55,639 nt of DNA, from contig CACZXZ010000010.1 in the NCBI GenBank assembly GCA_902785325.1, positions 1-55,639 of the forward strand, written 5' to 3'. The position numbers were made by a program, and so were the translations under genes. Under the pieces are notes generated by a model, which saw only the letters and a program-made list of their open reading frames with translations, was not told where the DNA came from and ran no database searches. The DNA comes from an uncultured Succinivibrio sp. (GTDB lineage: Bacteria > Pseudomonadota > Gammaproteobacteria > Enterobacterales > Succinivibrionaceae). Below are positions 9,010 through 55,383 of this stretch, piece after piece; the first letter of the stretch is position 1, and every line of letters begins with the position of its first letter.

Positions 9010-10254
9010 ATGCTACCTAAAATTGATGGGCAATATTTATTTGTCTTGCCCCTACCTCTTGTAAGTCCAACAGATCCTAAAGCTACCTTATTTGGTATCG
9101 TCTATGCCTATACAGATGCTGCTTTTAACCTCATTGGTAAAAAAGAGTTACTTATTTGTAAAGGCTTAGCTTACAAGTTACCATCCCCAAGTTATCTTTT
9201 TGCACAAGGTATCAATCCTGATTTAATTGCAAATGGCTTAAGTGAAGTTGAGTTCTTAACAAGACTTCAAAAGATTATGCAAGCACCTAATCTAGACATT
9301 TTTACTTGGTCACTGCATAACCTTAAAATCGTCGATAAGATGTGCACAAGAAACTTAGAGGCTAATCTTTTAGGTAAAGTAAATTCCTTAATCGATGTTA
9401 ATAAGATACTGAAACTTGACCAATACCTAAATACAGGATCAGTACCTAATACAGATGCGCTTTATAAATGCGCAAAATTATTAGGTTTTAAAGAAAGCTC
9501 AAAGCATACTGATCTGTTGTTTAAATTAGATGCTTTAATCTATTTAGTAAAGCATTTAAATACTAATGCTCAAGCTTTATTAAACTTCTCTTTAAAGGGC
9601 AAGCAATTTAAGATTGATACCATTAAAAATGCCCTTTTAAAAGGTCAAACCTTACTAGATTTTAATACAGCAACCCATGAGATTAACCTATTAAAGCCAC
9701 TTGTATTTGACGACTCAAAACAAAGACTTGAAGCTTTAGTTTATGACAATAATGGTATTACCCGTCAATTCATCTATTTAAGTCAATTTCCACTGTTATC
9801 TCCTGCTACTGTATTAACTCCAGCAAGACAAGAGCTTACAAAGATCTCTTTAAATAGTGTTAATAAGGCATTTTCTGAAACTGACATAAATAGTCTTAAA
9901 CTTGATTTAAACAGTCTAAGTGTTTTTGAAAAGTTTTATGCTCAATTAAATGCTGATGATAAGGCTTATTGCAAGCAGTGGAGAGCTTCTCCTAAAAACG
10001 CCCTTGAGCCACCTGCATTATCCTGCTCAAAGGAATTTAGACAACTAGTATTCTTACTTCGTGGTAATAACTTTGCAGGCACTTTAATCGACAATGAGCT
10101 TCAATATTACTACAGAATGTGTCAAAGCCTTTTAATGCCTCAGTTAAAAGTGTACGCTAAAGAGCTTAAATTACTAGTAAATCAGGTAGATGAGAATAAT
10201 CAAGAGCAAGTAATGTTACTTGCCACTATAGAGCGCTATTTAAGCTCTCTATAA
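9010..10254 (+). CDS. Exodeoxyribonuclease I (SbcB)-like protein, probably catalytically inactive
   Basis: The 414-residue protein aligns by eye with E. coli ExoI along its length: ATLFGIVYAYTDAAFNLIG with the first DnaQ strands, the PSPSYLFAQGI segment, FPLLSPATVLTP with the SH3-like domain, and a C-terminal NNFAGTL ... ELKLLVNQ region. ExoI (475 residues) digests single-stranded DNA 3' to 5'. Here the first exonuclease motif is lost: the positions of D15 and E17 are Leu13 and Leu15. Near His166 the following catalytic Asp is replaced (Phe171). Only an Asp equivalent to D108 (Asp109) seems kept. About 50 residues are missing mid-protein. It reads as an intact gene behind DUF4250, so a structural or SSB-binding role is possible. 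Homology is fairly sure, inactivity is inferred. Confidence 0.7.
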   Translation: MLPKIDGQYLFVLPLPLVSPTDPKATLFGIVYAYTDAAFNLIGKKELLICKGLAYKLPSPSYLFAQGINPDLIANGLSEVEFLTRLQKIMQAPNLDIFTWSLHNLKIVDKMCTRNLEANLLGKVNSLIDVNKILKLDQYLNTGSVPNTDALYKCAKLLGFKESSKHTDLLFKLDALIYLVKHLNTNAQALLNFSLKGKQFKIDTIKNALLKGQTLLDFNTATHEINLLKPLVFDDSKQRLEALVYDNNGITRQFIYLSQFPLLSPATVLTPARQELTKISLNSVNKAFSETDINSLKLDLNSLSVFEKFYAQLNADDKAYCKQWRASPKNALEPPALSCSKEFRQLVFLLRGNNFAGTLIDNELQYYYRMCQSLLMPQLKVYAKELKLLVNQVDENNQEQVMLLATIERYLSSL

Positions 10255-10255
10255 T

Positions 10256-10282
10256 AAGCTTTGGAGTATTACTCCAAAGCTT
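10256..10282. terminator. Bidirectional terminator between ExoI-like gene and topA
   Basis: AAGCTTTGGAG (10256-10266) pairs with CTCCAAAGCTT (10272-10282) around a 5-base loop. The convergent genes end at 10254 and 10288. Confidence 0.75.
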
Positions 10283-10287
10283 TATGA

Positions 10288-12993: not shown

Positions 12994-13010
12994 GGTAATA
13001 CCTTTTTCTT

Positions 13011-16404: not shown

Positions 16405-17478
16405 ATGACTAATTTCTATAAAAAGCTTGACATCTCAGCCTTTGATGCAATTTCAAAAGCACAAAAAATTGTGAACGGACCAATGCTTTTCCAAGCAACT
16501 TTCAGCTTAATTGAACATGGCGTCTTAAAAGCTCTTGATGAATCCCCAAAAGGTTTAACTTTAGAACAATTAAAACAACAGACAGATTTAAGTGAATATG
16601 CCCTTGGTGTCCTACTAGATATGGGTGCCTCTGGTGAAATTGTCACTGTAAGTGATGAAGGCGTTTATACTTTAAGCAAGATTGGTTTTTTCTTAATCAA
16701 TGATGAAATGACCAAAATCAACATGGATTTTATCAAGTATATTTGCTATGAAGGTGCAGATAAACTTGATGCTTCTCTAGTTCAAAGAAAGCCATGCGGT
16801 TTAGCGGTATTTAATAAAGATTGGCAAACCATTTATCCTTATCTTGACAAATTACCAGGTAAAGCAAAAGAAGCTTGGTTTAATTGGGATCACTTGTATT
16901 CTCAAACAGCTTTTAAAGATGCTATTACCAAGCTAAACGAATTATACAAGCCTAAAACAATTTATGATGTAGGTGGTAATACAGGTAAATTTGCGATTGC
17001 CTGTTGTAATCAAATTGATGATGTTAAGGTTACAATCCTAGATTTACCATCACAAATTAAGATGGCAAAAGAGAATATTCATGCTCACAACCTTGATAAT
17101 CAAATTGATTTTCAAGCAGTAGATATCTTAAATCAAGATCCTAACCTACCACATGACGCTGACATTTGGTGGATGAGCCAATTTTTAGACTGCTTTGCTC
17201 CAGAGCATGTATTACATATCTTAAGCAATATCTCAAAAGCTATGAAAGATGATGCTAAAGTATGTATTTTAGAGCCTATTGCTGATAGACAGAAATTTGA
17301 AGCTTCAGCTTACTCTATCAATGCAGGATCTTTATACTTTACTTGTATGGCTAACGGTTACTCTCGTTTCTTTAGCACCAAGATGTTAACTGAACTTGTA
17401 ACTAAAGCAGGCTTTAAAGTTGAAAATATTATTGATGGTCTTGGTATTTCAAATTCCTTATTTATTCTAAGTAAGTAA
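16405..17478 (+). CDS. APE cluster O-methyltransferase-fold SAM methyltransferase
   Basis: The 357-residue protein has an N-terminal winged-helix dimerisation domain (about 20-90) and a class I SAM-binding domain with IYDVGGNTGKFAIACC, the layout of the PF00891 methyltransferases. It is the first gene of the APE operon. Some APEs carry a methylated 4-hydroxyphenyl head group, so methylation of the aromatic end is the likely role. No ribosome site is evident before the ATG. The family is confident; its exact acceptor is inferred. Confidence 0.85.
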   Translation: MTNFYKKLDISAFDAISKAQKIVNGPMLFQATFSLIEHGVLKALDESPKGLTLEQLKQQTDLSEYALGVLLDMGASGEIVTVSDEGVYTLSKIGFFLINDEMTKINMDFIKYICYEGADKLDASLVQRKPCGLAVFNKDWQTIYPYLDKLPGKAKEAWFNWDHLYSQTAFKDAITKLNELYKPKTIYDVGGNTGKFAIACCNQIDDVKVTILDLPSQIKMAKENIHAHNLDNQIDFQAVDILNQDPNLPHDADIWWMSQFLDCFAPEHVLHILSNISKAMKDDAKVCILEPIADRQKFEASAYSINAGSLYFTCMANGYSRFFSTKMLTELVTKAGFKVENIIDGLGISNSLFILSK

Positions 17479-17479
17479 A

Positions 17480-18205
17480 ATGAAAATTAGCTTTAAGATT
17501 GAAGATGTAGCAGCAAGAGCTTTTGGGTTAACTACCATTGAAGAGTTTACTGCGCTTGCAAATGGTAGTCTTACTGTTGATACTAAGGCTCCTAATCCAA
17601 AACCAAAACTTATCCCAATGATGACCGCAAGACGTCTGTCTGACGGTTGTCGCTTAGCTGTGGATGCAGGGCTTGAGCTTAGTTCAAGAAATAAGCTTAC
17701 AGGAGTTATCTACTCTTCCTTATCAGGAGAAATCCAGCACAACTATAAAGTGTTAACAGCTTGTGCAAAAGATATTCCTTGTTCACCTACAGATTTTTCA
17801 ATGTCTGTACACAATGCAGCTGTAGGTAACTTTACTATTTTGTCAAAGGCTGATATTCCATCAAGCTCAGTAAGCGCAAGTGAAGATTCATTTATGCAAG
17901 CACTAGTGGATGCTTATATTAGACTTGATAATGATGAGGATAGAATTTTAGTTGTTGACTACAACGTCTCAATTCCTGAGTTCTTTATTTGCTATAGCGA
18001 TAGTGATCTTTTAGCTTACCCAATTGCCGTAGGTTTTGTATTAGCTAAAGGTAATGAAGTAACTATTAACGCTCAAGCAAAAGAAGCTGTAACTTACGAC
18101 AATCATCAAGCTCTTACTTTTTTATTAAATTACCTAAAAAAAGCTCAACAATGTACGATTAAAAGCTCAAATCAAGAGTATCAGGTAAATTTCTCATGCA
18201 GGTAA
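17480..18205 (+). CDS. apeC: APE ketosynthase-like chain-length factor
   Basis: This 241-residue protein belongs to the short beta-ketoacyl-synthase-like group of APE clusters. It has ketosynthase features (SSLSGEIQHNYKVLTACA, FSMSVHNAAVGNF) but no active-site Cys, as expected for a chain-length factor that pairs with a catalytic ketosynthase (the ApeO-ApeC heterodimer in studied systems). It starts one base after the methyltransferase stop and its end overlaps the next gene by 10 bases, indicating one transcript and likely translational coupling. Confidence 0.82.
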   Translation: MKISFKIEDVAARAFGLTTIEEFTALANGSLTVDTKAPNPKPKLIPMMTARRLSDGCRLAVDAGLELSSRNKLTGVIYSSLSGEIQHNYKVLTACAKDIPCSPTDFSMSVHNAAVGNFTILSKADIPSSSVSASEDSFMQALVDAYIRLDNDEDRILVVDYNVSIPEFFICYSDSDLLAYPIAVGFVLAKGNEVTINAQAKEAVTYDNHQALTFLLNYLKKAQQCTIKSSNQEYQVNFSCR

Positions 18206-18969
18206 TTCTAGGAATTTATAGAGTTATTGTCGCAACCATTTATCTTGCGGTATTTGGTTTAGGAGCTTTATTTATTTCAGTGATATTCTTTAACCTGTTA
18301 TCCCTAGTGATAAGGGATAAGCAGAAAAAAGTTAGAATATCTAGAACCTTTACAAGTGCTTCTTTTAGAATGTACTTAAAATCCGGTGAGCTTATAGGCA
18401 TTTTTAAATTTAATTTTCATCATCTTGATAAATTAAAAAATGATCAAAAAGTAATTTATATTGCCAATCACCCAAGTTTACTAGACTTTGTGATCTTAAC
18501 TGCCATAGGCAAAAACACAAGTTGTGTAGTAAAAAGTAGTCTTAAGAAAAATCCTTTTTTCTCAGGGGTGATCTCTTGTAATCAGTATATTGGCAATCAC
18601 GGAAGTAGTGAGCAAATTGTACAAAGATGCAAAGATGAGTTAGAAAAAGGTAGTTGTCTCATGATTTTTCCTGAGGGTACTAGAACTAGAAATCAAAGTA
18701 ACCTCAAATTTACGCATGGTTTTTCTAGCATTGCGCTGACAAATAACTATAATATCAGACCATTCGTAATAAATTTTAAAGGTAGAGCTTTAAGAAAAGG
18801 TGCGCCTTGGTATTTAACTTATTACTCAAGGTTATATTATGATATTGAGGTTTTAGACTTATTTGATACAAAAGCATTTGTGCAACAACATCAAGATAAA
18901 GAAATTAGCGCACAATCAAGAATACTTGCAAAGCAATTACAGAATATTATTCAATCAAAAGTAGCTTAG
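18196..18969 (+). CDS. apeD: APE lysophospholipid acyltransferase (PlsC-like)
   Basis: A 257-residue membrane-bound acyltransferase with an N-terminal membrane segment, NHPSLLD (the NHx4D catalytic motif, about 92-98) and FPEGTRTR (about 156-163). PlsC-family proteins move acyl groups from ACP or CoA to glycerol phosphate acceptors. In APE clusters it is thought to help attach the polyene to its lipid anchor. Overlaps apeC by 10 bases. Confidence 0.87.
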   Translation: MQVILGIYRVIVATIYLAVFGLGALFISVIFFNLLSLVIRDKQKKVRISRTFTSASFRMYLKSGELIGIFKFNFHHLDKLKNDQKVIYIANHPSLLDFVILTAIGKNTSCVVKSSLKKNPFFSGVISCNQYIGNHGSSEQIVQRCKDELEKGSCLMIFPEGTRTRNQSNLKFTHGFSSIALTNNYNIRPFVINFKGRALRKGAPWYLTYYSRLYYDIEVLDLFDTKAFVQQHQDKEISAQSRILAKQLQNIIQSKVA

Positions 18970-18977
18970 GAACACAC

Positions 18978-19235
18978 ATGGAAACTTTATATCAGGAAAT
19001 TAAACAACTTATTATCGACTCACTTAATCTTGAAGATCTAAGTGTTGACGATATTGAGACTGAAGCTCCTCTTTTTGTAGATGGCTTAGGTTTAGATTCT
19101 ATTGATGCTTTAGAGCTTGGTATGGCTATTAAGCAAAAATACGGCATCACTCTTTCTTCAAATAATGAAGAAATGAAAAAATGTTTTTACTCCGTAAAGA
19201 CTCTTGCAGATTACATTTCAACCCATAAGAGCTAA
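18978..19235 (+). CDS. apeE: APE acyl carrier protein 1
   Basis: An 85-residue acyl carrier protein. Ser41 in GLGLDSIDALEL is the predicted phosphopantetheine site. With the second ACP downstream it should carry the starter and growing polyene chain. Eight bases after the acyltransferase and two before the next ACP gene. Confidence 0.92.
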   Translation: METLYQEIKQLIIDSLNLEDLSVDDIETEAPLFVDGLGLDSIDALELGMAIKQKYGITLSSNNEEMKKCFYSVKTLADYISTHKS

Positions 19236-19237
19236 TT

Positions 19238-19483
19238 ATGACTAAAGAAGAAATTTTTGAGCAAATCAGACTAATGCTATCTCAGCTATTTGAGATTGAT
19301 AAAGAAGAAATCACTTTAGAGAGCAAACTTTTTGAAGAGCTTGAGTTAGACAGTATTGATGCTGTGGATTTAGTAGTTAAGCTACAAAAGACCATCGGCA
19401 AAAAGATCATGCCTGAGGAATTCAAGCAAGTTCGCACTGTTAAAGATGTAGTTGATGTAGTTTATAAAATTACTCACGAATAA
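19238..19483 (+). CDS. apeF: APE acyl carrier protein 2
   Basis: An 81-residue acyl carrier protein with Ser39 in LELDSIDAVDL as phosphopantetheine attachment site. Two adjacent ACPs with little identity outside the DSID motif are typical of APE clusters, where they probably serve different steps. Confidence 0.92.
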   Translation: MTKEEIFEQIRLMLSQLFEIDKEEITLESKLFEELELDSIDAVDLVVKLQKTIGKKIMPEEFKQVRTVKDVVDVVYKITHE

Positions 19484-19487
19484 GTAA

Positions 19488-20066
19488 ATGTTAAAAAAGC
19501 TGATAGTTTTTTTCTCGGTTGCAATTACCCTCGTGGTACCTTTTGCAATTTATTTTGGAATAAAATATCAGCTTTTAACTTATGTATTAGCTCTGCTAAT
19601 TGTGGTGAATTTACTTAGACTTACCACCTTTAACTTTAAAAACTCAAAAGTTAAGGTATTGTCTAAAGTAAGTTTTTTTACCGTTATTATTCTGATAGTT
19701 TTAGCCATAACCCAGCTAGTACTTAAAGATTTAAAGCTTATTTACTATTACCCTGTTGCAGTAAATTTTGTGTTTTTATCAGCTTTTTTGATAAGTCTCT
19801 TTTCAAAAGAAGCTATCATCACTAAATTTGCAAAACTAATTCATCCAAATCTTGAGCAATTTGAAATTGACTACACTAGAAATGTAACCAAAGCTTGGTG
19901 CTTATTTTTTGTAGTCAATGGACTTATAGCCCTTTATACCGTACTAAGTCATTCAATTGAGCTTTGGACTCTTTATAACGGGCTTATCTCCTATCTTGCT
20001 ATAGGAGTGTTTGCTTTAATAGAGCTTTTGATTAGAAAAATTGTAAAAGCAAAACATGGAAAATAA
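19488..20066 (+). CDS. apeG: APE membrane protein (COG4648 type)
   Basis: A 192-residue integral membrane protein with about six hydrophobic segments (near 5-22, 28-46, 58-78, 85-105, 133-155 and 160-185) and a basic C terminus. Proteins of this kind occur at this position, between the ACPs and the AMP ligase, in APE clusters; their role is unknown, perhaps in membrane assembly of the synthase. Overlaps the following gene by 11 bases. Confidence 0.78.
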   Translation: MLKKLIVFFSVAITLVVPFAIYFGIKYQLLTYVLALLIVVNLLRLTTFNFKNSKVKVLSKVSFFTVIILIVLAITQLVLKDLKLIYYYPVAVNFVFLSAFLISLFSKEAIITKFAKLIHPNLEQFEIDYTRNVTKAWCLFFVVNGLIALYTVLSHSIELWTLYNGLISYLAIGVFALIELLIRKIVKAKHGK

Positions 20067-21456
20067 TACTCAAATAGCGCTATCAAGTTTTATTAGAGAA
20101 AACGATAACGATAATCAAAACTTATGGTGTACAGATAGAATTTTTAATAAAAGCTACACTTACTTAGATTTTAAGTACTTACTCTTAGCTGTAAGTTCAC
20201 TACTTTCAAAAACAGAACTTAAAAAAATTGCTATTTGTACCGAGAACAGCGCATTTTTCTCTGTGTTTTTCTTCTCCTGCTTACTATCAAATAAACCCCC
20301 TGTGTTATTAGGTAACTTTACTAAGCTTTCTTTAGTAGAAGATGTAGATAAGTATGATTTAGTTGTAACAGATGAAAATATCAAAGACTTACCTATAAAA
20401 ACATTTTTTATAGATTATCTTGCTTTTGACGGGTTACTTAAAAACGCTAAAGACACCTTTTCAACAGCTGATTTAAACAATATTAAGTTTAATAGTGAAG
20501 ATAACATTGTGCTTTACACCTCTGGCAGTACAGGTAAATCAAAAGCAGTAATAAAAACTTTTAAGCAGATGTTTGATGAAGCGGTAACTGTAGCTTCTAT
20601 TACCGAAAATTTAGCAGGTACACCTAACTTAAAGGCTATTGCAACTGTACCTCCATATCACATGTATGGACTTACTTTTAGGATCTTTCAATGTCTATAT
20701 CAAAAAATCACCATTGAAGTACCTATCTGTCATTACACAGAGGAATTACAAAGCTTTAAAGAACCTTTAGTGCTTATCTCCTCCCCTGCTTTTTTAAAGC
20801 ATATTGATTACTCAAAGGAAAGTCCAAATATCGTGTTTGCCATAAGTGCTGGCTCAGCCCTTCCAAAAGATATAGCAGCAAAGTTTTATCAATGGACAGG
20901 AACTCCCATTACAGAGATCTATGGCAGCACAGAAACTAATGTGATGGCTTATCGTTTTAATCGTGGACTTGATGAGCTATTCACACCTTTTGATGGTATA
21001 TCGTTCTTTGAAAATAAGGATAGCTTTTATCTAAAGTCTCCTTTTGTGTTAGGGGATTTCAAACTTGATGATAAATTGTGCTTTGAAAATGAGCACAAAT
21101 TTAAAATCATGGGTCGTACCGACAAAATTGCTAAAATTGCAGAAAAAAGAATTAGCTTAAGCTTAATTGAAAAACTTTTAAAACAAGATCCTAAAGTTTT
21201 AGATGTTGTAGCTTTACCTTTAGAAAAGCATCAAAGAAACTTTATTGCTCTTGTGGTGAAAGTATCACATGCAGATCACGAGTTTTTTCTAATAAAAGCT
21301 AATAAAATACAATTTGTGAAAACTTTAAAAGAAAAACTTAAAGATCATATTCCACAGATTGCTATGCCAAGATTTGTAAGAATAGTAACGGATATTCCTC
21401 AAAATAGTATGGGCAAGAATATCGTATTACAGCTAAAGGAATTATTTAATGATTAA
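20056..21456 (+). CDS. apeH: APE AMP-dependent ligase activating the aryl starter
   Basis: A 466-residue member of the adenylate-forming family: phosphate loop LYTSGSTGKSKAVIKT (about 154-169), YGSTE (about 290-294) and a C-terminal catalytic Lys in SMGKNIVLQ. In characterised APE systems this enzyme activates 4-hydroxybenzoate and loads it onto an ACP. The gene overlaps both neighbours, so it is co-translated with them. Confidence 0.87.
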   Translation: MENNTQIALSSFIRENDNDNQNLWCTDRIFNKSYTYLDFKYLLLAVSSLLSKTELKKIAICTENSAFFSVFFFSCLLSNKPPVLLGNFTKLSLVEDVDKYDLVVTDENIKDLPIKTFFIDYLAFDGLLKNAKDTFSTADLNNIKFNSEDNIVLYTSGSTGKSKAVIKTFKQMFDEAVTVASITENLAGTPNLKAIATVPPYHMYGLTFRIFQCLYQKITIEVPICHYTEELQSFKEPLVLISSPAFLKHIDYSKESPNIVFAISAGSALPKDIAAKFYQWTGTPITEIYGSTETNVMAYRFNRGLDELFTPFDGISFFENKDSFYLKSPFVLGDFKLDDKLCFENEHKFKIMGRTDKIAKIAEKRISLSLIEKLLKQDPKVLDVVALPLEKHQRNFIALVVKVSHADHEFFLIKANKIQFVKTLKEKLKDHIPQIAMPRFVRIVTDIPQNSMGKNIVLQLKELFND

Positions 21457-21811
21457 ACCTAAAGCTTATAAAACAGAAATTATTGATAAAAACACTGCAA
21501 AGGTAAGTTTCAAATTAGACGCTGACTTGTTTTACCTAAAAGGACATTTTGAGGTTCAAGCGTTATTGCCTGGTGTAGTACAAGTAGGTTATGTAGTAGA
21601 GTTTGCCAAAGAGTTGCTTAATTTAGATGTAATTACCAATTTTCAGGTGATTAAATTTCTAAATCCTATTATTCCAGAAGATACAGTTGAACTAACCCTT
21701 AAATATAACGAAACAAAGCAAGCTCTTGATTTTGAATATTACCTAAAAAATCAAGAAAAGGTAGCAAGTAAAGGCAAAGCAAAAGTATCATGCAACAGCA
21801 ATTTGGCATAA
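21449..21811 (+). CDS. apeI: APE hot-dog dehydratase
   Basis: A 120-residue FabA/FabZ-like hot-dog protein with catalytic His in KGHFEVQALLPGVVQVG. It should dehydrate 3-hydroxyacyl-ACP intermediates and in studied systems works as a heterodimer with ApeP. Overlaps its neighbours by 8 and 22 bases. Confidence 0.87.
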   Translation: MIKPKAYKTEIIDKNTAKVSFKLDADLFYLKGHFEVQALLPGVVQVGYVVEFAKELLNLDVITNFQVIKFLNPIIPEDTVELTLKYNETKQALDFEYYLKNQEKVASKGKAKVSCNSNLA

Positions 21812-23473: not shown

Positions 23474-23475
23474 CA

Positions 23476-24469: not shown

Positions 24470-24472
24470 GTT

Positions 24473-28931: not shown

Positions 28932-28937
28932 AGAGGT

Positions 28938-32451: not shown

Positions 32452-33438
32452 TTATACCTCTTTCATAGCCTTATAGGCTAATTCAAATACCTTTGTATCA
32501 GCACCTAATTCATGCATGTGTTTTGATAAGTAATTTCTAAAACGACGGGCACCTTTTTCACCATTAAATAGGTTAATGATATGGTTACCAAGATAATGTA
32601 ATTTATTACCTTCTTTTAAAAATTGCTCACTAAAAGCTAAGACTTTTTCAAAGACTTCATCTTTAGTTAAGATCTTAGTGTTCTCCCCATATATCATACT
32701 ATCAACTGAGGCTAACAGATAAGGATTATCCATAATTGCTCTACCAAGCATCACTCCTTGCACCTTTTGAAGCTTACTTAAACAATCCTCAATGGTGGTG
32801 ATACCTCCGTTGATGGTAATAGACAAGTCAGGAAAATACTCATACATAGCATAGACTCTGTCATAGTCTAGTGGTGGTACACTGCGGTTCTCCTTTGGAG
32901 ATAAACCATTAAGCCAAGCTTTTCTTGCATGTAGAATAATATGACGACAACCAGTTTTATATACTGAATCTACAATACGGATAGTATCGTCAAGACTATC
33001 CTCCTCATCAACACCAATACGAGTTTTTACAGTAATAGGAATATCTACAGCATCTTGCATTGCTTTAACACAATCTGTAATCACCTGTGGGGTCTTCATT
33101 AAGATTGCACCAAAGCTTCCTTGTTGAACTTTATCTGATGGGCAACCTGCGTTTAAATTGATAGCACTATAACCAAATTTTGAGGCGATTTTACAAGCTT
33201 TGGCAAGTACTTTAGGATCAGAGCCTCCTAATTGCAAAGTGCATGGGTTCTCCTCATCACTATGCTCAATTAAATACTCTTTTCCATGTACTAAGGCATT
33301 TGCTGCTATCATTTCTGTATAGAGCGTAGCTCTTTTAGTCATAAGTCTTGCAAAGCGCCTAAAGGTCCTATTAGTAACATCAATCATAGGAGCTACAGAA
33401 AATCTATCAGCTTTAGTAAAACTTTTATTACTCATCAT
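32452..33438 (-). CDS. dusA: tRNA-dihydrouridine synthase A
   Basis: A 328-residue FMN enzyme with RFSVAPMIDVTNRTFRRF at the N terminus, LQLGGSDP, catalytic Cys99 in NLNAGCPSDKVQQG, and the DusA-specific HARKAWLNGLSPKENR stretch. DusA reduces U20/U20a in the D-loop of tRNAs. The start codons ATG ATG are adjacent; either could be used. A hairpin terminator separates it from the SHMT-like gene upstream. Confidence 0.94.
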   Translation of the reverse strand: MMSNKSFTKADRFSVAPMIDVTNRTFRRFARLMTKRATLYTEMIAANALVHGKEYLIEHSDEENPCTLQLGGSDPKVLAKACKIASKFGYSAINLNAGCPSDKVQQGSFGAILMKTPQVITDCVKAMQDAVDIPITVKTRIGVDEEDSLDDTIRIVDSVYKTGCRHIILHARKAWLNGLSPKENRSVPPLDYDRVYAMYEYFPDLSITINGGITTIEDCLSKLQKVQGVMLGRAIMDNPYLLASVDSMIYGENTKILTKDEVFEKVLAFSEQFLKEGNKLHYLGNHIINLFNGEKGARRFRNYLSKHMHELGADTKVFELAYKAMKEV

Positions 33439-33491: not shown

Positions 33492-34742
33492 CTAATAATG
33501 CTCTTCAGCAATCATCATCTGACTAATAGTAGGATCCATGTACTTTCTATCGATAGCAGGTAAAGTAGAGGTTAGTGAGGTTACAAGTTTAGTAATTTTG
33601 CTTGCATTCTCATCATCAGGTTTAGTTAAGTACTTACCGATGTATCTACCTAATTTCTCCATCTGCTCTTTGGTGATACCACGAGTGGTAGCAGGTAAGG
33701 AGGAGAAACGTACTGCATCAAATTTTACATTCGGATCATTAGTTAAAACTTGAGTAATTCTAACATGAACACCAAGATCTGCTAATAGCTCTTGAGCACC
33801 ACGAGCTGAAATTGCACAAACTTTAGTATCAATCATTACCAGGTGAGATTGAGTTCTACCTGAAATGATCTTCATGCCACCAGCTTGTAAGCCTGCTGCT
33901 AGTGCTTGAGCATTTGCAACTACATCATGGCAGTATTGCTTAAAGCCATCATTTTCCATCTCATGAAGTCTTGCAGCAAGTGAGCATAGTTGTGGTGAGG
34001 TTAAACCGTTGTGACCTGCTAGAGTCTCAGAGCGTTGAATGTCGCCTGCTAAATCCTTTTTACATAAAATTACCGCAGCTTGAGGTCCTTGCATAGCTCC
34101 GTGGGTTGAGAAGGTAACTACATCAGCATACTTCATAGGGGTTTCTAAAGTACCTGCAGCGGTTAAGCTTGCTGTTTGTGACAAGTCACACCAAAGTAGT
34201 GATCCACAAGCTTTAGCAATTTTAGCAAAGCGCTCAAAGTTAATTGGTAGTGAGTAGTTAACAGGAGAGACAATAATTAGCTTTGGTTTGTGAGTGTTTG
34301 CTAATCTTTCGATTTCATCCATGTCTAATTCTTGAGTAACAGGATCAATACCAAAATTAACAAAACGGTAAGCTAAAGTCTCGCTGTTGCAGTGCTCTTT
34401 TTTACGTAAGTCTAATGACATTACAACATCACCGCGCTTAGTTAGTGCTTTAAACACTACACGAGAAGCAGCTTCAATAGTGATAGTCTTTACTGTGGCA
34501 AAAGGAGCATTAAATACTTTACATAATCTTGATACCACAAGATTTTCTAAAGTATCGCTCTTACCTAAATTTAGACAATTAGTAGAATTTACAAGCACAC
34601 TTCCCATGATGGCAGCACAAATTGGGGATGTGCTATTCTCATCAGGAATAAAAGAAATCGCTGCATGTTGACGCTCTAATTCTTTTACAAAGTAAGAATA
34701 TAATTCTTTGTCAAAACTTTTTACTAAATTAAGTGAATTCAT
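33492..34742 (-). CDS. Serine hydroxymethyltransferase-like protein lacking the PLP lysine
   Basis: This 416-residue protein aligns with GlyA throughout: DKELYSYFVKELERQ, ENSTSP, HKPKLIIVSPVNYS, CDLSQTASLTAAG and VRFSSLPATTRGI. The Schiff-base lysine motif TTTTHKTLxGPRGG of GlyA reads FSTHGAMQGPQAA (Gly215 at the Lys position). The His that stacks on PLP (E. coli H203) is Gln189 and the YYGG and HGGHLTHG motifs are gone, while the PLP-binding Asp (Asp186) and a carboxylate-binding Arg remain. It cannot be a normal SHMT. I start at the ATG at 34742, preceded by AAGGAGAGG, not the upstream in-frame codon at 34778. It follows the SLC13 gene by 39 bases and may share its transcript. Confidence 0.8.
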   Translation of the reverse strand: MNSLNLVKSFDKELYSYFVKELERQHAAISFIPDENSTSPICAAIMGSVLVNSTNCLNLGKSDTLENLVVSRLCKVFNAPFATVKTITIEAASRVVFKALTKRGDVVMSLDLRKKEHCNSETLAYRFVNFGIDPVTQELDMDEIERLANTHKPKLIIVSPVNYSLPINFERFAKIAKACGSLLWCDLSQTASLTAAGTLETPMKYADVVTFSTHGAMQGPQAAVILCKKDLAGDIQRSETLAGHNGLTSPQLCSLAARLHEMENDGFKQYCHDVVANAQALAAGLQAGGMKIISGRTQSHLVMIDTKVCAISARGAQELLADLGVHVRITQVLTNDPNVKFDAVRFSSLPATTRGITKEQMEKLGRYIGKYLTKPDDENASKITKLVTSLTSTLPAIDRKYMDPTISQMMIAEEHY

Positions 34743-34781: not shown

Positions 34782-36047
34782 TTAGAGCTCAAATGGCCAT
34801 ACAATTGGAATTATAAGAATACATAAAAGCCAGGCTATAAAGCATAGTGGAAGACCCACTTTCAAATAATCTTTAAAGTGCAAACCTGATGGACTTAAAA
34901 TCAAAGTATTACATGGTGTTGCAACTGGCGTTGCAAAAGAGCAAGAAGCACCTATAGCACAAGTAATGATTACTCCATATGGAGATACATTAAGTTTAGT
35001 TGCAATACTCATAGCAATTGGAATTAAAAGTGCAGCAGTAGCTGTATTTGGCATAAACTGAGTTAGTGTACAAGCTACAAAGAAGATAGCACTTACAATT
35101 ACCACCTCAGATAAATTGTCACCAAGTAAACCTACAATAGTGTTAGCAATTAACTCACCAGCACCAGTCTTTTGCATAGCATGGGCAATTGGCAACATAC
35201 CTGCAAATAAGAAGATAGTAACCCAATCAATACCTTTGTAAGCTTGTTTTTCAGTGATACAACCTGTAGCTACACACAACAAAGCTGCAATTAAACTTAC
35301 TACAGCAGGTGATAAACCTGGAATTCCGATAATTAAACCTGTAACCACAAAGATTAGAATCAATACAGCTAATACACGCTGTTTGTGGGTTCCTTTAACT
35401 TTTGATTGAGCAATTAAACCACTATCAGCTGATACTTTTGGTAATAATCTTTTACCGATAAAGTGCATGAATAAAACTGCAGCTAGTGCAATAGGACCAC
35501 CAATATAAGCAAATTCAAAAAAGCCATAAGGCTCAAGTCCTCTTGCTTGAATCTCAGCTACAGCAAGCATATTAGGTGGTGTACCTACCATAGTAAGGTT
35601 ACAACCTACGTTTGCAGCTACAGCTAAAGCCATTAAAATCGGAGCTGATGGAATTTTTGCAGAAACGCAAACACCAATTACCATAGGTAATAAACAAGCT
35701 ACAGTACCAGTGTTAGAGGCAAAGGCTGACATTACAATAGTAAGTAACATTAAAGCAATCATTAAGGAGCTTTGATTAGTACCTACTTTTTTAACAATGA
35801 AATTACCGATAACTTGAGCAAGACCAGACTCAAGCATGGCAGCACCTACTACGAACATGCCACCAAATAGCACTACCGTACTATTTGAAAATCCAGAAAA
35901 AGCTTCTTGGGGAGTCAAGATACCGCAAAAGGCAAGAACAATGGTTCCAGACAAAGCTGCAACGGCAATAGGAATGTATTCAGTTACGAATAAGAAAGCT
36001 ACAGAAGCTAAAACAATTAAGGTAATGATTGCAGGATCCATAAGCAA
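34782..36047 (-). CDS. SLC13 (DASS) family anion permease
   Basis: A 421-residue membrane protein with about 11 helices. Two SNT-type signature sites (FASNTGTVA near 112-120 and MPNTATAA near 330) mark the divalent anion:Na+ symporter family, which carries dicarboxylates such as succinate or citrate, or sulfate. The substrate is not determined by sequence. It precedes the SHMT-like gene on the same strand. Dicarboxylate transport would suit a succinate-producing anaerobe, but that is inference. Confidence 0.85.
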   Translation of the reverse strand: MLMDPAIITLIVLASVAFLFVTEYIPIAVAALSGTIVLAFCGILTPQEAFSGFSNSTVVLFGGMFVVGAAMLESGLAQVIGNFIVKKVGTNQSSLMIALMLLTIVMSAFASNTGTVACLLPMVIGVCVSAKIPSAPILMALAVAANVGCNLTMVGTPPNMLAVAEIQARGLEPYGFFEFAYIGGPIALAAVLFMHFIGKRLLPKVSADSGLIAQSKVKGTHKQRVLAVLILIFVVTGLIIGIPGLSPAVVSLIAALLCVATGCITEKQAYKGIDWVTIFLFAGMLPIAHAMQKTGAGELIANTIVGLLGDNLSEVVIVSAIFFVACTLTQFMPNTATAALLIPIAMSIATKLNVSPYGVIITCAIGASCSFATPVATPCNTLILSPSGLHFKDYLKVGLPLCFIAWLLCILIIPIVWPFEL

Positions 36048-36329
36048 AGTCCTATTTTTTTCTTTTATTTTAATCAGTTAAAGAAAAACAAATCTGTGAG
36101 AACTAACACAACAAAGATAAATCTTTAAGGTAAGTTTTTGTTTTTGTTAACTAAATCAACAAAAAAAGAATATTAATTGCAATCATTACCTTACTACTCT
36201 CCTTGTCAAGCCAAGGATGTAAGAGTGAATTTGTTTTATTATGTAAATCCTAAGAAATTGCATATTAACGTCGATAAATAGATGTAAAATCACAAAAATA
36301 AAGCACAGATTGTGATAAGATTTAAAGCT

Positions 36330-38174
36330 ATGATTAATATTAAAATAACAAAAAGAAATATAACTGAAGATTATATAGCTGTGGAACGTGAAACAGGCTC
36401 AATTTTACTGCCAAGTAAACACGTCTTCGGTATTTTTTCTATTGGTGTTATTAGTATATTACTTGCCCTACCATTTGGTCAGTTAGTTCCTATAGAAGCC
36501 TCCCCTTTTAGTGCTTTTACAGCAGGAAGAGTTGAACAAAACAAAAAGTTCGAACAGGCTTACTTAACTAACAACGAACAAGTTTCAGAACAAAACTTAG
36601 AAATTGCCTCAACCGCTGGCTCTGAAGAAAACTACGATGATGAAATCGTACCTGAAGCCCTACTTGCAAGTAATGATATTGATGAGAGCTTAGCCTCAGA
36701 TGATAAAGCAAACTCAAGTACACAAGTTAATTTAAGTGCTCACATTCCATCTGTAAAAGAGAAATTTAAAGCTACCGCTATTGAACCTACACAAAAAGAT
36801 ATAACTGATACCACAACTTCAGTAAATGAAAAACAAGAAATATCCTTAGCAGTAGCACAAATGCAAGCTCGTATCATGGAGCAAAAGAATGATGCTAAAT
36901 GGTATGAACAGACAGTACGTAAAGGAGATTCTTTATACAAGATTTTTAACTACCTTAATCTTGATAATAACGAGTTAAAGAAGATCATGGCTGTAGCCGA
37001 AAAAGATTCTTTAAATCTTGAGGTAGGCACAAAAATCCAATTCCTAATTGATTCAAATAATGATATTCAGGAAATAGCAATTCCACAAGCTAATGGCATG
37101 CAAGTTCGTTTCTTGCGTGATGATCAGAACAATACTTATCTTGAAAGTCGTGAAACTTTATTTGCTCAATTTGAAGATTTAAAACCTACTAATGTAGAAA
37201 AATCTACCACCCTACCATCCTTTATTGAAGCTCAAAAAGAAAGAGAGCAAAAACAGCAAGAACTTATTGCTAAAAATAAAGCTGAAAGAGAAAAACAGCT
37301 ACTTGCTAAAAAGTTAGAAGAAGAAAAACAAGCTGCCAAAGCAGAGCTTGAGAAAAAACTTCAGCTTGATAAAACTAGACCACGTTTAATTATCGGTACT
37401 ATCAATAGACGTGAATCTTTTGATAGCGCAGCTAAACGCTTAGGTTTATCTAGAGCTGAAATTGCTACTATTAAAAATCAGTACCAAGGTAAAATTAACT
37501 TTAGACAACTTAAAGCTAATGATACTTTCAGAGTTTTATTCAACGGTATTGGTACTCAAGCATCCATTAGTGCTATTGTGATTGATTCACAAAAGTACGG
37601 TAACATTAGTTTATTCAAGCACCCTAAGACACATATCTTCTATGAAGAACATGACTATCAGCCACAAACTGGTGCTTTTAGACGATTCCCAATTTCTGGT
37701 CAAATTGTGGTTAATTCCCAATTTAACTTAAGGCGTTATCACCCTATTAAGAAGAGAATTCGTCCTCACTATGGCGTGGATTTCAAGTTAAGAATTGGTA
37801 CCCCTATCTATGCCCCGGCTGATGGTGTGGTAACTTACGCAAGTTACATGCGTGGTGGTGGCTATACCGTAATTATTTCCCATAAGGGTGGCTATAAGAC
37901 AGTTTACATGCACTTATCTAAATTTGATGTACAAAAAGGACAACAAGTTTATATAGGTCAAATGATTGCAAAGTCAGGTAATACTGGTAATTCTACAGGA
38001 CCTCATCTTCATTATGAGGTGCACGTAAATGGACGTGCTGTTGATCCTTTAAAGGTAGACTTGCCATCAGGTAGCCCTGAAGTTGCTAAGAGTTTAAAGA
38101 AACATTTTGATGACACTGTCATGGTGTTAAAGTCAGAATTGTATAAAAGTGCCCTAGCTATACGCCAAGAATAA
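36330..38174 (+). CDS. M23 peptidoglycan endopeptidase (MepM-like)
   Basis: A 614-residue, membrane-anchored protein: one N-terminal helix (about 30-50 from the ATG), an acidic linker, a LysM/OapA-like region around YEQTVRKGDSLYKIFNYL, a Lys/Glu-rich coiled coil (about 290-345) and a C-terminal M23 domain. The Zn ligands are in HYGVDFKLRIGTP and HLHYEVHVNG. Such proteins cut peptide cross-links during cell-wall growth. A GTG 18 bases upstream (36312) is an alternative start; neither has a strong ribosome site. Eleven bases separate it from the M20-like gene. Confidence 0.88.
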   Translation: MINIKITKRNITEDYIAVERETGSILLPSKHVFGIFSIGVISILLALPFGQLVPIEASPFSAFTAGRVEQNKKFEQAYLTNNEQVSEQNLEIASTAGSEENYDDEIVPEALLASNDIDESLASDDKANSSTQVNLSAHIPSVKEKFKATAIEPTQKDITDTTTSVNEKQEISLAVAQMQARIMEQKNDAKWYEQTVRKGDSLYKIFNYLNLDNNELKKIMAVAEKDSLNLEVGTKIQFLIDSNNDIQEIAIPQANGMQVRFLRDDQNNTYLESRETLFAQFEDLKPTNVEKSTTLPSFIEAQKEREQKQQELIAKNKAEREKQLLAKKLEEEKQAAKAELEKKLQLDKTRPRLIIGTINRRESFDSAAKRLGLSRAEIATIKNQYQGKINFRQLKANDTFRVLFNGIGTQASISAIVIDSQKYGNISLFKHPKTHIFYEEHDYQPQTGAFRRFPISGQIVVNSQFNLRRYHPIKKRIRPHYGVDFKLRIGTPIYAPADGVVTYASYMRGGGYTVIISHKGGYKTVYMHLSKFDVQKGQQVYIGQMIAKSGNTGNSTGPHLHYEVHVNGRAVDPLKVDLPSGSPEVAKSLKKHFDDTVMVLKSELYKSALAIRQE

Positions 38175-38185
38175 AAGGACATATT

Positions 38186-40117
38186 GTGTTAAGTGAAGAA
38201 GATTTTTGCGAAGAGTCATTAGCCGTTTTAAAGTGGCTGATTGCTATACCTAGTATAACTAGAACTAATGGTGATGAAATCATTAACCGTACCATCTACA
38301 ATACGGTTTCTGAATTTACTTACTTTAAAAATCACCCAAACTTTTTAAAATACATCACTCATGACGATCAAAAGAATCACTCTTTTATCGCTTTTGTAAG
38401 ACGTGATGTACTTACTACTCAAACTTTAGTAGTACTTTGCAATACTGATACCTCCTCAAATGAGGTTTTTGGTACTCTAAAGTCCTATGCTTTCAAATCA
38501 GAAGAACTTAAGACTAAATTAAAAAATATTGCTGTTACTCAAAATCAAAAACAAGATCTTGAGAATGAGAACAACATTTACGGCTTAGGTAGTTTTGAAA
38601 ACAAATCCCCTATAGCTGGCATGTTAATTTTGCTTAAGTACTACACTGAAAGATTGTGGGAGTTACCTTGCAATTTGATGTTTGTATGTAACAGTGAATC
38701 TTTAGATGGTCACTGTGGTATCCGTACTTGCCTACCTTACATTCATAACATCATTAACGATGAGAACATTGAGTTAACTTTAGCTTTATCTTTTAAGCCA
38801 GAATCTACTAATAAAGATCCTAACAATATTAGTATTTACACTGCAAACATGGGTAAGGTTGAAGCTGGTTTCTACATTCTAGGTGAAGGTACAGACTCAG
38901 AGCAGCCTTTTAAAGGCTTCTCCCCTACCTTAATTGCTTCAAAAATCATTGAAGAAATTGAGCTTAATGCAAAGATCACACAGAATATTTCTCGTAGTGC
39001 TATTGCTCCTACTTTCAATTACTTGCATTCATACAACAACCGTTCTCCTAATACCCCTGATGTAGTACATTTAAGTTACAACTTCCCTTTTATTAACTTA
39101 AATCTACTAGATTTATTAGAGAACTTAAAACAGGTTTGCGCAAGTGCCATTGAAAAGTCAGCTTTCTATATGGAAGACAGAGAAAACCTTTTCTGTAAGA
39201 TCAATGAGCTTGAGCCTTTTAACACCACTCGTGAAGCTGAGGTTTTATCTTTCTCTGATTTATTTATAAGAGCAAGTTATCATTACAAAGGCAATTTAAA
39301 ATCAGCCATTGAAGGCTTAATTCAAAAATGCGCTAATGAGGATTTATCAAATCACGATATTATCAAAACCGTAATTGAGCGCTTAAATGAACTAGCAAGA
39401 TTACCAAGACCATCTGTAGTTATATTCTTTGGTAATGACTTTATTCCACAACAACAATTAAGACGCAATAATGCTCAGGACCGCGAGATTTATATTAAGC
39501 TAAATCGTGCGGTTGAAGAATTTAATAAAGATCATAGTCATCAATTAAATATTGAGAATGAATGCCCTGCAAACGACAACTGTTTTATTCGTCCTGTAGG
39601 CATTGATATGGCTTTAAAGGCTCTTAAAGACGAGTGTCCAATTCCTGTTTCTACTTTCTACAATTTGTCAGCTCCTGGTGTAACCTTCAGTTACAAAGGT
39701 GGTGAGTTATATCGTGCTTTTGAGCATGTCGATAAGACTTTCTTTAATGACATGATCACCTTTATCCATCTTTTAATGAAAGAGATTGGTCCTGAAGATC
39801 AGGTTGATACTATTAAAGAGACCACTGATGAGGCTATGTCTATTTTAAATAGCAACTCTGAAGAAAAGAGTAAAGCTGCTAAAAAAGAGGCTAAGATTAA
39901 AAAGAGTCAAGCTCACATCAAGATTGTAGACAATAAAACCGAAGAGAAAAAATCTAGTATTGAAGGTAAACTTGCTAAAGAAGATCTTAAAGAGAACGAC
40001 TCTTCAAAGAGTGATTTAGAAGCTTCTGCTGAAGATAAAAAATCTAAAGCTACTGCTAAAGATGAAGATAGTTCAGATAACAGTTCTAACCATACCGACG
40101 AGCCAAAACAAATCTAA
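38186..40117 (+). CDS. RocB/M20 peptidase-like protein, metal site lost
   Basis: The 643-residue protein follows RocB-type M20 deacylases: LVVLCNTDTSS (81-91), YGLGSFENKSPIAG (132-145), LMFVCNSESLDGHCGIR, NMGKVEAGFYILGEG, and RPSVVIFFGNDFIP. M20 enzymes need two metals bound by H, D, E and H. Here the first His is Asn86, the bridging Asp is Glu138, the catalytic Glu pair reads Ser170-Glu171, and the last His region (normally like DAHQWTERL) reads FSYKGGELY. It is therefore likely inactive as a peptidase. The final about 100 residues are Lys/Glu/Ser-rich and disordered. GTG start with AAGGA 7 bases upstream. Probably co-transcribed with the M23 gene. Confidence 0.7.
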   Translation: MLSEEDFCEESLAVLKWLIAIPSITRTNGDEIINRTIYNTVSEFTYFKNHPNFLKYITHDDQKNHSFIAFVRRDVLTTQTLVVLCNTDTSSNEVFGTLKSYAFKSEELKTKLKNIAVTQNQKQDLENENNIYGLGSFENKSPIAGMLILLKYYTERLWELPCNLMFVCNSESLDGHCGIRTCLPYIHNIINDENIELTLALSFKPESTNKDPNNISIYTANMGKVEAGFYILGEGTDSEQPFKGFSPTLIASKIIEEIELNAKITQNISRSAIAPTFNYLHSYNNRSPNTPDVVHLSYNFPFINLNLLDLLENLKQVCASAIEKSAFYMEDRENLFCKINELEPFNTTREAEVLSFSDLFIRASYHYKGNLKSAIEGLIQKCANEDLSNHDIIKTVIERLNELARLPRPSVVIFFGNDFIPQQQLRRNNAQDREIYIKLNRAVEEFNKDHSHQLNIENECPANDNCFIRPVGIDMALKALKDECPIPVSTFYNLSAPGVTFSYKGGELYRAFEHVDKTFFNDMITFIHLLMKEIGPEDQVDTIKETTDEAMSILNSNSEEKSKAAKKEAKIKKSQAHIKIVDNKTEEKKSSIEGKLAKEDLKENDSSKSDLEASAEDKKSKATAKDEDSSDNSSNHTDEPKQI

Positions 40118-40169: not shown

Positions 40170-41345
40170 CTAAATAGTTAAAGACAACAACACCTCACAA
40201 TCAGTTTGGGTAAGTTGCTCTTGAGTATCAAGTTTTTTAATAGCAGGAAATCCTAATTTATTTAATACTCTTTCAATGTCTTTAGCATCGGCATTGATAT
40301 CTTTAAAATTGATAGGACAACCAAGTCTCTTAATAAATTTTCTGATCTTCTCTAAAGTCTGTCTTGCTGTTTTGACAGGTTCATAGAAATCATACTCAAC
40401 ATTAAAGACTTGTGAAGCTAACTTCATAAATTTGTCTTGTTGCGTTTTGATGTTATATTCAAGATAAGCACTAGTCATTAAAGCTAAAGCTTTTTCAAAA
40501 GAGCAATCAAACACACACTCCACAGCTTGAGCTAATTCAAGTAAAGTTGCTTTGTTAACTTGAGTATAGATAAAGCTAATATTTGCAAAAAAGCTTACAT
40601 TTAAAATATTCTCAATGCACTCTATATCGTGAGGATCGTCTTCTAATTTGTCCACTTGAGAAACTAGAGTTCTTAATGCACCTAAAGACAAATTATCGGA
40701 TAAGTCGTGGGATTTTTGATTGCTAAAATAGCGATACAATAAAAAACAAAAGATCCTAACGGTGGACAATTTAATATTCTGATTGTCATAGGTGCACAAA
40801 TCAGGTGAATAAATTACAAACTTAGGTTTGGTCGCTTCAGTTTCAAGTTTGTACATCACAAGTTGCCCATCTTCTTGTTTATGAGAAACGGTTGCTTGCT
40901 TTAAAAACACCGAGCCTCCAGCAACTGAGGTACAAATAGCACCAAAAGGCAAAGCCTTTTCAATTTCAGTTTCTTTTTTAAAGAGGTTTAAGTAGTTTCC
41001 TCTAAACTTTAAAGCGGTAGCAATGATCTTTGAGCAGGAATACTCACTATAGCCACCTATAGCTAAAATGAAATCTACATTTTCAATGTTACAAAGATTG
41101 ATACCTTCATAAACATCATCAATATCAGCTTTAGGACAAGTGGATTTATAAACTACGTAATCGATACCAGCTGATCTTAAAGAGCGCTTTACTTTATCAA
41201 TAAGACCTACTACTTTCTCATTTCCTTTAGCATAGTTAATTAAAACTTTAGTGCCGCCATAGTATTTGATGTATCGACCTATATCATTTTCTTGGCTACT
41301 ACCATATAAAAGATCGGTATCATTAACTCGATTTACAAATTCCAT
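40170..41345 (-). CDS. Iron-containing alcohol dehydrogenase-like protein, metal and NAD sites lost
   Basis: The 391-residue protein follows the BdhA/YqhD branch of iron ADHs: GRYIKYYGGTKVLINYAKG, DFILAIGGYSEYSCSK (normally GGGSVIDSAK), ALPFGAICTSVAGGS and PKFVIYSPDL. Metal ligands are replaced by hand alignment: Asp and His of the DxxxH motif become Arg197 and Phe201, and the two later His become Gln273 and Phe283. The cofactor-site GGGS/D motif is also altered (Tyr99, Ser103). It is full length without stops, so it is probably a retained pseudoenzyme. It faces the M20-like gene across a shared terminator and is divergent from potG. Confidence 0.72.
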   Translation of the reverse strand: MEFVNRVNDTDLLYGSSQENDIGRYIKYYGGTKVLINYAKGNEKVVGLIDKVKRSLRSAGIDYVVYKSTCPKADIDDVYEGINLCNIENVDFILAIGGYSEYSCSKIIATALKFRGNYLNLFKKETEIEKALPFGAICTSVAGGSVFLKQATVSHKQEDGQLVMYKLETEATKPKFVIYSPDLCTYDNQNIKLSTVRIFCFLLYRYFSNQKSHDLSDNLSLGALRTLVSQVDKLEDDPHDIECIENILNVSFFANISFIYTQVNKATLLELAQAVECVFDCSFEKALALMTSAYLEYNIKTQQDKFMKLASQVFNVEYDFYEPVKTARQTLEKIRKFIKRLGCPINFKDINADAKDIERVLNKLGFPAIKKLDTQEQLTQTDCEVLLSLTI

Positions 41346-53205: not shown

Positions 53206-53297
53206 AATCTTACCTTTTAATTGCTAATCGTTCTACAAAATTAAAAGGTAAAAAAATACTATTACTCTGTTGCTCAAAGATAATGTATTTTTATTTT

Positions 53298-53316
53298 GGT
53301 CAAATTGCTTTTGACC
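53298..53316 (-). promoter_or_regulatory. Candidate LysR operator and -35 of the oxidoreductase operon
   Basis: GGTCAAA (53298-53304) and TTTGACC (53310-53316) form an inverted repeat with a 5-base centre, about 93 bases upstream of the gamma subunit start. On the minus strand its TTGACC could act as a -35 box with a weak TATCTT 15 bases further. The LysR gene ends 84 bases away and may encode the protein that binds here. Confidence 0.45.
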
Positions 53317-53399
53317 GCCTTTTAATCTATGAGCACAGTATCGTTTTTTTAAAGATATTTGTCTAATACTGTTTATAAATACTTAGCAATAGTTATTTT

Positions 53400-54329: not shown

Positions 54330-54399
54330 ATTTGTAACTTAAAGCTATTTAAAAAAATTTAAAAACCTACTAAAATTATAAGAAATATAGGAGATATTT

Positions 54400-54837
54400 A
54401 TGAAAATTTCAACTAAAGGTCGTTATGCTCTAAGAATGATGATAGAGCTTGCTCAAAATCACAATGTAGGATTCATGACTTTAAAGGAAATTGCTCAAAA
54501 ACAAAATATCTCAAAAAAATATTTAGAGCAGATTATTCCCGTTTTAAATCGGAATAACTTTTTAATTGCTACCCGCGGTTTTCAAGGTGGCTATAAACTA
54601 GCTAAAGAGCCTTGTGAATATACTGTAGGACAAATTCTTAGATTAACAGAGGGTAATTTAGCTCCAGTATCTTGTCTTGAATGCACACCTAACACTTGTC
54701 CTAGAGCAAATGAGTGTCCTACCCTATTTTTATGGGAAGGACTTTATAAAGTAGTCAATGAATACCTAGACTCAATTACTTTAGAAGATCTAGTACAAAG
54801 ACAAAAGGATCATTTGTGTAATGACTACATCATCTAA
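54400..54837 (+). CDS. Rrf2-family regulator with a likely FeS cluster
   Basis: A 145-residue Rrf2 protein: winged helix (KISTKGRYALRMMIEL, ISKKYLEQIIPVLNR) and cysteines 92, 95, 100 and 106 in CLECTPNTCPRANEC, a C-x2-C-x4-C-x5-C spacing able to hold an iron-sulfur cluster. Relatives sense FeS status, redox or nitric oxide. TATAAG lies 20 bases before the AGGAG site. Divergent from LysR, convergent with the EIIA-like gene. It could link the ferredoxin-dependent operon to redox state. Confidence 0.88.
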   Translation: MKISTKGRYALRMMIELAQNHNVGFMTLKEIAQKQNISKKYLEQIIPVLNRNNFLIATRGFQGGYKLAKEPCEYTVGQILRLTEGNLAPVSCLECTPNTCPRANECPTLFLWEGLYKVVNEYLDSITLEDLVQRQKDHLCNDYII

Positions 54838-54840
54838 CCT

Positions 54841-55383
54841 CTAGTTAGTATTGATATTACAAATAATACTATCAAAATTGAGTTTTCTTGAATTGATAAA
54901 AGTGATGTGCTCTTTTGCTTTGGTCTGTCTTACGGTAATCACACACACAAAGGTTCTATCAAGACTGTAAAGTTTATCCACATCAAAAGTAAGGATAGTT
55001 TGTCCTTTTTCTACTCTATCCCCTTCCTTTACCAATAGGTTAAATAAGTCTTTACTGTACTTGTCTGCCTCTAAACCAACATTAAGGATAATTATCACAC
55101 TACCAACTTTAAGACGGATACCATTACCTACAGCTGAAATTTTCTCGACCAAACAATCACAAGGGGCTTTTACCTCATTTTTTAAAGGTAAAACACCAAG
55201 AGAGGTACCAAAGATATCATTCTTAATATTGATATTACCTATTAGCTCTGAAGGCACCACATTGCCAGAATATGGAGATAAGATTTTTTTAATCGAGTTA
55301 TACTTAAAATAATAAAAGATCTTAAGTATTCTTGATTGAATAAATGATCCTAGAGCAAATCTTTGATTGATATTTAGTGACAT
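54841..55383 (-). CDS. EIIA-Glc-like protein lacking both active histidines
   Basis: The 180-residue protein has the EIIA-Glc beta sandwich pattern from about residue 32: ILSPYSGNVVPSELI, GTSLGVLPLKNEVKAPCDC, VKEGDRVEKGQTILTFD. The phosphorylated His (LFVHFGIDTV in E. coli) is Asn101 in IILNVGLEAD. The second His (E. coli H75) is Asn87 in AVGNGIRLK. It cannot accept phosphate as a PTS protein would. A 30-residue basic N-terminal extension precedes the fold. A regulatory or binding role is possible. Family fit is good, loss of function is inferred. Confidence 0.7.
   Translation of the reverse strand: MSLNINQRFALGSFIQSRILKIFYYFKYNSIKKILSPYSGNVVPSELIGNINIKNDIFGTSLGVLPLKNEVKAPCDCLVEKISAVGNGIRLKVGSVIIILNVGLEADKYSKDLFNLLVKEGDRVEKGQTILTFDVDKLYSLDRTFVCVITVRQTKAKEHITFINSRKLNFDSIICNINTN

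Follow-up and report, generated by a model that had tools for sequence, protein, structure and literature searches.

Enzyme-family proteins without their catalytic residues, apparently retained as pseudoenzymes in a clade of Succinivibrionaceae

We consider it probable that a number of enzyme genes in one clade of the family Succinivibrionaceae have lost their catalytic sites yet are kept under purifying selection as pseudoenzymes without the old chemistry. The window, i.e. the whole stretch of DNA that was analysed, comprises 55,639 nucleotides of an uncultured Succinivibrio sp. (assembly GCA_902785325.1, contig CACZXZ010000010.1). An earlier note on it had named five open reading frames coding for enzyme-family proteins with erased active sites, which resemble exonuclease I (ExoI), serine hydroxymethyltransferase (SHMT), an M20 metallopeptidase, an iron-containing alcohol dehydrogenase (ADH) and the EIIA-Glc protein of the phosphotransferase system (PTS). 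All five frames were borne out as real, three of them on the minus strand, and the residue comparison confirmed the erased sites (Table 1). Homology, residue loss, orthology and purifying selection were observed, as was the fold for two of the proteins. A lost motif, conservation of the loss across species and purifying selection, the marks of a pseudoenzyme on which the note had made its claim depend, were found together for four proteins, which are orthologous and mostly syntenic, and only partly for the ADH-like protein.

The comparison covered 36 Succinivibrionaceae genomes; these are drafts, so that the absence of a gene may be a contig gap. At least one of the SHMT-, ExoI-, M20- and ADH-like genes is present in 28 genomes and none in the other eight, and the first three occur together in 20. 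Orthologs were found in 24 genomes for the SHMT-like, 24 for the ExoI-like, 27 for the M20-like (two partial), 25 for the ADH-like (one with a stop codon) and 12 for the EIIA-like protein. The SHMT-, ExoI- and M20-like genes extend across the 28-genome clade and are found in 0/8 of the remaining genomes; the window-type EIIA-like protein is confined to the window's own genus. Several enzymes would have been converted in this large clade into retained non-catalytic proteins.

Table 1. Positions of the proteins under study and of the genes next to them (window coordinates unless stated otherwise; PLP, pyridoxal phosphate; EI, enzyme I).
Feature	Position	Strand	Remarks
ExoI-like protein	9010..10254	+	ExoI homologue lacking the DEDDh site of the nuclease; flanked by purT and topA
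dusA	32452..33438	-	follows the SHMT-like gene on the same strand after 53 bp
SHMT-like protein	33492..34742	-	PLP lysine absent, pocket rebuilt and invariant; dusA follows directly
DASS-family symporter gene	34782..36047	-	upstream of the SHMT-like gene; absent there in several relatives
mepM-like M23 peptidase gene	36312..38174	+	precedes the M20-like gene
M20-metallopeptidase-fold protein	38186..40117	+	catalytic Glu and most metal ligands gone; directly after the mepM-like gene
Iron-ADH-like protein	40170..41345	-	metal quartet D-H-H-H is R, F, L, F; GGGS is GGYS; convergent with the M20-like gene
EIIA-Glc-like protein	54841..55383	-	both phospho-relay His are Asn; adjoins an Rrf2/IscR-type regulator gene
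EI-like gene	L268 1287-3492 (G000:C26), outside the window		divergent PTS EI, followed directly by an EIIA without either phospho-His

The pocket of the SHMT-like protein

The SHMT-like protein has overall homology to fold-type I SHMT, and its start is most likely the ATG at 34742, as in the orthologs. Compared with GlyA it has Gly for the Schiff-base lysine of PLP (K229), Gln for H203 and many new invariant residues in the pocket. The Gly is present in all 24 SHMT-like proteins, whereas the intact glyA copies keep K229 in 20/20 cases read; the Gln is likewise fixed, and Y55/E57 and the Y64-Y65 loop are lost. In the tree a branch with support 100 separates the SHMT-like proteins (23 rows, the partial L009 left out) from the intact glyA copies. 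A same-strand dusA lies within 1.5 kb downstream at 23 of the 24 loci, and the remaining locus ends at a contig edge.

The replacements go far beyond the lysine. At 57 of 396 positions the SHMT-like proteins (n=20) are at least 95% fixed to a residue that differs from the glyA consensus (n=18); these counts omit the SHMT-like proteins of G014, G011, G010 and G003 and the glyA of G014 and G010. Many of the fixed changes are in the former pocket (D35, I98, E99, R103, D120, R122, K123, E125, C127, Q203, G229), in which H126, D200 and R363 are retained. The active-site shell, taken from the literature together with the roles of its residues, is better conserved in the SHMT-like proteins than random sets of positions (fraction 0.016). 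At the PLP phosphate site S99 is replaced by E or D and G98 by I, Y55 is lost and G262 is variable; judged by these residues, the site is unlikely to have survived. Most likely the rebuilt pocket of the SHMT-like protein takes up a small ligand or docks a partner, and the protein would act in signalling or as a scaffold.

The earlier note suggested that the lineage had repurposed these enzymes as binding or structural proteins. Repurposing is well supported as evolution; binding or structural roles are something that we infer, and the rebuilt SHMT-like pocket may also have become a new active site. The mechanism that we prefer is binding without the former catalysis, and its chief rival is that new enzymes have arisen, at least the SHMT-like pocket having been rebuilt for other chemistry as an active site that is PLP-independent or uses a migrated lysine. 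We regard this as rather unlikely. The 57 fixed positions, the three retained residues and the conservation of the shell all argue for it, and the probable loss of the phosphate site as well as the literature origin of the shell list argue against it; moreover, no comparable new invariant set of acids and bases was seen in the other proteins, which were inspected less closely.

The other erased proteins

Homology of the ExoI-like protein to exonuclease I (SbcB) was found in the nuclease and C-terminal parts. Unlike SbcB, it has no DEDDh residues and is shorter (414 against 475 amino acids). With 13 of the 21 intact ExoI genes above the cut-off aligned as a reference, D15, D108 and D186 are absent in 24/24 orthologs and E17 in 23/24, the D186 site being occupied by Arg or Lys in 23/24. 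H181 is kept in one ortholog, the window's own, where the alignment is gapped and the position uncertain. Within 1.5 kb of the 24 loci both purT and topA were found at 6, purT alone at 14 and topA alone at 4. Three family genomes (G022, G027, G034) possess an ExoI above the NCBIfam cut-off and lack the ExoI-like gene, and neither form was found in the five other genomes of that eight-genome group. It therefore looks as if the ExoI function was lost in the clade rather than duplicated beside a working copy. Since purT and topA were not seen in the flanks of 20 intact-ExoI loci (L148-L167), the ExoI-like gene cannot be placed at an old sbcB site.

The claim of a RocB/M20-type protein was upheld in its M20 part: the structure model has the M20 fold, and in the fold comparison its best match is 14% identical over 348 residues. 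RocB was not confirmed, as no RocB model matched in the profile searches. By sequence alone the signal is weak: sequence searches gave no match above any family cut-off, and a profile comparison with DapE and ArgE of E. coli aligned the first half of the protein (E 2.8e-5, probability 74%), leaving the C-terminal metal His outside the alignment. The protein shares the fold and one first-motif Asp (25/25 orthologs) with the M20 metallopeptidases DapE, ArgE and CNDP2; it differs from them in that the catalytic Glu and most of the metal ligands are replaced, and in carrying a charged tail. The positions of DapE H66, D99, E133, E134 and E162 are N, E, S, L and K in the window. Among the 25 of 27 orthologs that were aligned (the partial L086 and L087 left out), the H66 site is His in 4, the D99 site Glu in 21 and never Asp, the E133 site Ser or Thr in 23 and never Glu, and the E134 and E162 sites are never Glu. 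The tail begins past about residue 540 (540-643) and has low model confidence. The M20-like protein would most likely scaffold by means of its fold and this tail. As side observations, the M20-like frames in G026, G032 and G019 (L079, L080, L082) are open for at least 924, 1035 and 1050 amino acids, the last two ending at the locus edge, and G029:C109 (L297) has no M20-like gene between the ADH-like gene and a mepM-like gene shortened to 339 amino acids.

Both ADH domains were detected in the window's ADH-like protein, as in iron-containing ADHs (YqhD, FucO), from which it differs in lacking the metal ligands and in the altered GGGS. The NCBIfam model of the ADH-like regulator ErcA is among its matches below the cut-off. 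The loss is graded: across 24 orthologs the metal quartet is intact in two (G021, G026), the others having two, three or all four ligands replaced, and the former ligand sites remain variable. Of these 24, 21 lie within about 2 kb of the M20-like gene on the same contig, that of G029 is beside mepM and pot, and those of G010 and G011, on other contigs, were assigned by similarity. An in-frame stop interrupts the ortholog of G009 (L097). A 35-row tree including paralogs, without L097 and the unaligned loci L104, L105, L107, L108 and L117, requires at least four changes between the kept and the lost state; several of its forks are unsettled and the direction was not inferred. The graded quartet and these changes therefore point to stepwise erosion and not to one fixed ancient loss, possibly of an enzyme whose chemistry had become dispensable. 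Restored catalytic residues in sister genomes were to count against the earlier claim, and for the ADH-like protein this is partly what the two intact metal sites amount to.

The window EIIA-like protein has homology to the EIIA-1 domain, in common with EIIA-Glc (Crr), from which it differs by Asn at both phospho-relay His (75 and 90, numbered without Met). This is so in 12/12 genomes, all of the window's genus; six of the 12 loci have the IscR-type neighbour. A separate EIIA of G000 retains both His. With Asn at both sites the EIIA-like protein should not relay phosphate.

Following EIIA paralogs, and not a census, led to a second case, the EI-like gene and its EIIA. The EI-like protein scores 190 bits (cut-off 342), and it carries C502A, N454S, D455S and R358G in 18/18 genomes read; in the same genomes the adjacent EIIA has neither His (18/18). 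The normal EI of G000 retains C502, N454, D455, R358 and H189. EI-like matches below the EI cut-off were found in 20 of the 22 family genomes searched first; among the other 14 a strong match (E < 1e-100) is found in 6/6 within the clade and in 0/8 outside it (best E 4e-55). The ratio of non-synonymous to synonymous substitutions (dN/dS) of the two genes is 0.014-0.15 (four pairs each). At the two loci inspected (G000 and G008) the pair comes after a cysZ-like gene, named by eye. With EI-like and its EIIA erased outside the window, the pattern reaches beyond this contig, which supports a broader tendency to erased enzymes in the lineage, as far as residues can tell. The EIIA-like proteins are most likely regulators that stay permanently in the "dephospho" EIIA state and work by binding to partner proteins. 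A PTS without a permease is described for Brucella (PMC2937029).

Selection, synteny and distribution

Values of dN/dS were calculated by the Nei-Gojobori method, and pairs with high or undefined dS were given no weight. In the close pairs (G014, G011, G004) they are 0.018-0.041 for the SHMT-like, 0.010-0.062 for the M20-like, 0.043-0.125 for the ADH-like, 0.095-0.156 for the EIIA-like and 0.095-0.216 for the ExoI-like protein; intact glyA gives 0.008-0.021 (G004/G010/G014 pairs). In the G004-G010 pair the SHMT-like gene (0.026) stands beside dusA (0.045), AKR (aldo-keto reductase, 0.031) and mepM (0.066). All computable pairs are below 0.5. The frames are open in 24/24 ExoI-like and 24/24 SHMT-like genes (some truncated at contig ends), and through the folded part in 25/25 full-length M20-like genes.

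These data bear on slow pseudogene decay, according to which gut life made the enzymes useless and their genes are now remnants that are dying out. The graded ADH-like loss with its state changes and the stop in G009 keep this reading alive for that gene, and the ExoI-like protein evolves fast. The open frames in the ExoI-, SHMT- and M20-like genes, the dN/dS values, far lower in the close pairs than 0.5, and the fixed, non-random replacement of K229 and H203 in the SHMT-like protein and of the two His in the EIIA-like protein speak against decay, which is disfavoured for four of the five proteins and which we hold to be improbable overall. The earlier statement that the losses are neither sequencing error nor general decay stands for the same four, where open frames, neighbourhood and dN/dS rule both out, and does not stand for the ADH-like protein.

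The gene order common to relatives is AKR-dusA-SHMT-like-(DASS)-mepM-M20-like-ADH-like-pot. Housekeeping genes also keep their order well; thus the conserved neighbourhood argues for orthology and not for a functional link. In the eight family genomes that have none of these proteins, tblastn of the region around the mepM-like genes detected neither an M20-like or ADH-like gene nor pot. Against 229 genomes of the class, the SHMT-like profile at E < 1e-90, a chosen cut-off that more divergent copies may escape, matched only the window's own genome. The search of genome contigs for the M20-like protein gave 33 loci, 30 of them labelled Succinivibrio, Succinatimonas, Anaerobiospirillum (all three genera within Succinivibrionaceae), Avisuccinivibrio or Succinivibrionaceae and three labelled only Aeromonadales or gamma proteobacterium.

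NCBIfam models were run on 44 of the 50 window frames of at least 120 amino acids. Many other window proteins also fall below model cut-offs, so that loss cannot be read from a low score by itself. It is scarcely credible that the proteins never belonged to these enzyme families and lost nothing: the M20-like protein has no match above a family cut-off and the ExoI-like match is weak, but such misassignment is refuted for four of the five, the M20-like protein being the exception.

Elsewhere in the window, positions 16405-30895 hold an aryl-polyene-type cluster (methyltransferase, ketosynthases, FabG, FabZ-like, acyltransferases, LolA-like, RND transporter). By eye its FabZ-like protein (28464-28931; 30 bits against a cut-off of 113) seems to lack the FabZ catalytic His motif and to retain the Glu. 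Two adjacent similar small lipoprotein-like genes (808-1284 and 1602-2078) appear by eye to be a tandem duplicate. The order of the cluster genes was compared by eye with a table in PMC8253772, in which the position of the FabZ-like gene is that of ApeP, annotated as a dehydratase.

Weight of the evidence and significance

Several observations weigh against retained pseudoenzymes. The absence of activity, the order of events and every role are what we infer. The invariant Lys123 of the SHMT-like protein might be a migrated Schiff-base lysine. ExoI-like orthologs have 21-50% identity to the window protein, so that constraint is weaker than on the SHMT-like protein, and the G013-G006 pair, among others, evolves considerably faster (dN/dS 0.48 for the ExoI-like, 0.44 for the ADH-like, 0.23 for the SHMT-like and 0.16 for the M20-like gene). 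The first metal His is kept in four M20-like proteins, the Glu at the D99 site of 21 could still bind metal, and the gene was not found in G029. To these are added the full ADH-like metal site in two genomes, the stop in G009 and the H189 that the EI-like protein keeps in the alignment.

A coordinated conversion of enzymes into regulators within one family is a possible but doubtful extension. The SHMT-, ExoI- and M20-like proteins and the disabled EI-EIIA pair, all confined to the clade, would then date perhaps from its stem, and the SHMT-like pocket (D35, E99, R103, D120, R122, K123, E125, H126, C127, D200, Q203, R363) would sense or convert a new ligand without classical PLP chemistry.

Pseudoenzymes, described in PMC10211241 as proteins that retain the fold, lose the catalytic motif and are kept by selection, are already a known kind. 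The proteins studied here share these features; they differ in forming a set drawn from unrelated enzyme folds in one bacterial family. Among the literature matches listed there was no published description of these proteins, which may be reported elsewhere. Metabolic reconstructions of these species can be led astray by automatic labels like serine hydroxymethyltransferase, exonuclease I or EIIA. If the SHMT-like pocket indeed has a new ligand, a very well studied fold would have been put to a new use. Several unrelated metabolic folds in one rumen and gut lineage have lost their catalytic sites and stayed under selection. Ranging from intact sites (two ADH orthologs) through eroded ones to completely fixed loss (SHMT-like, EIIA-like), they form a natural series for testing how an enzyme becomes a non-enzyme.
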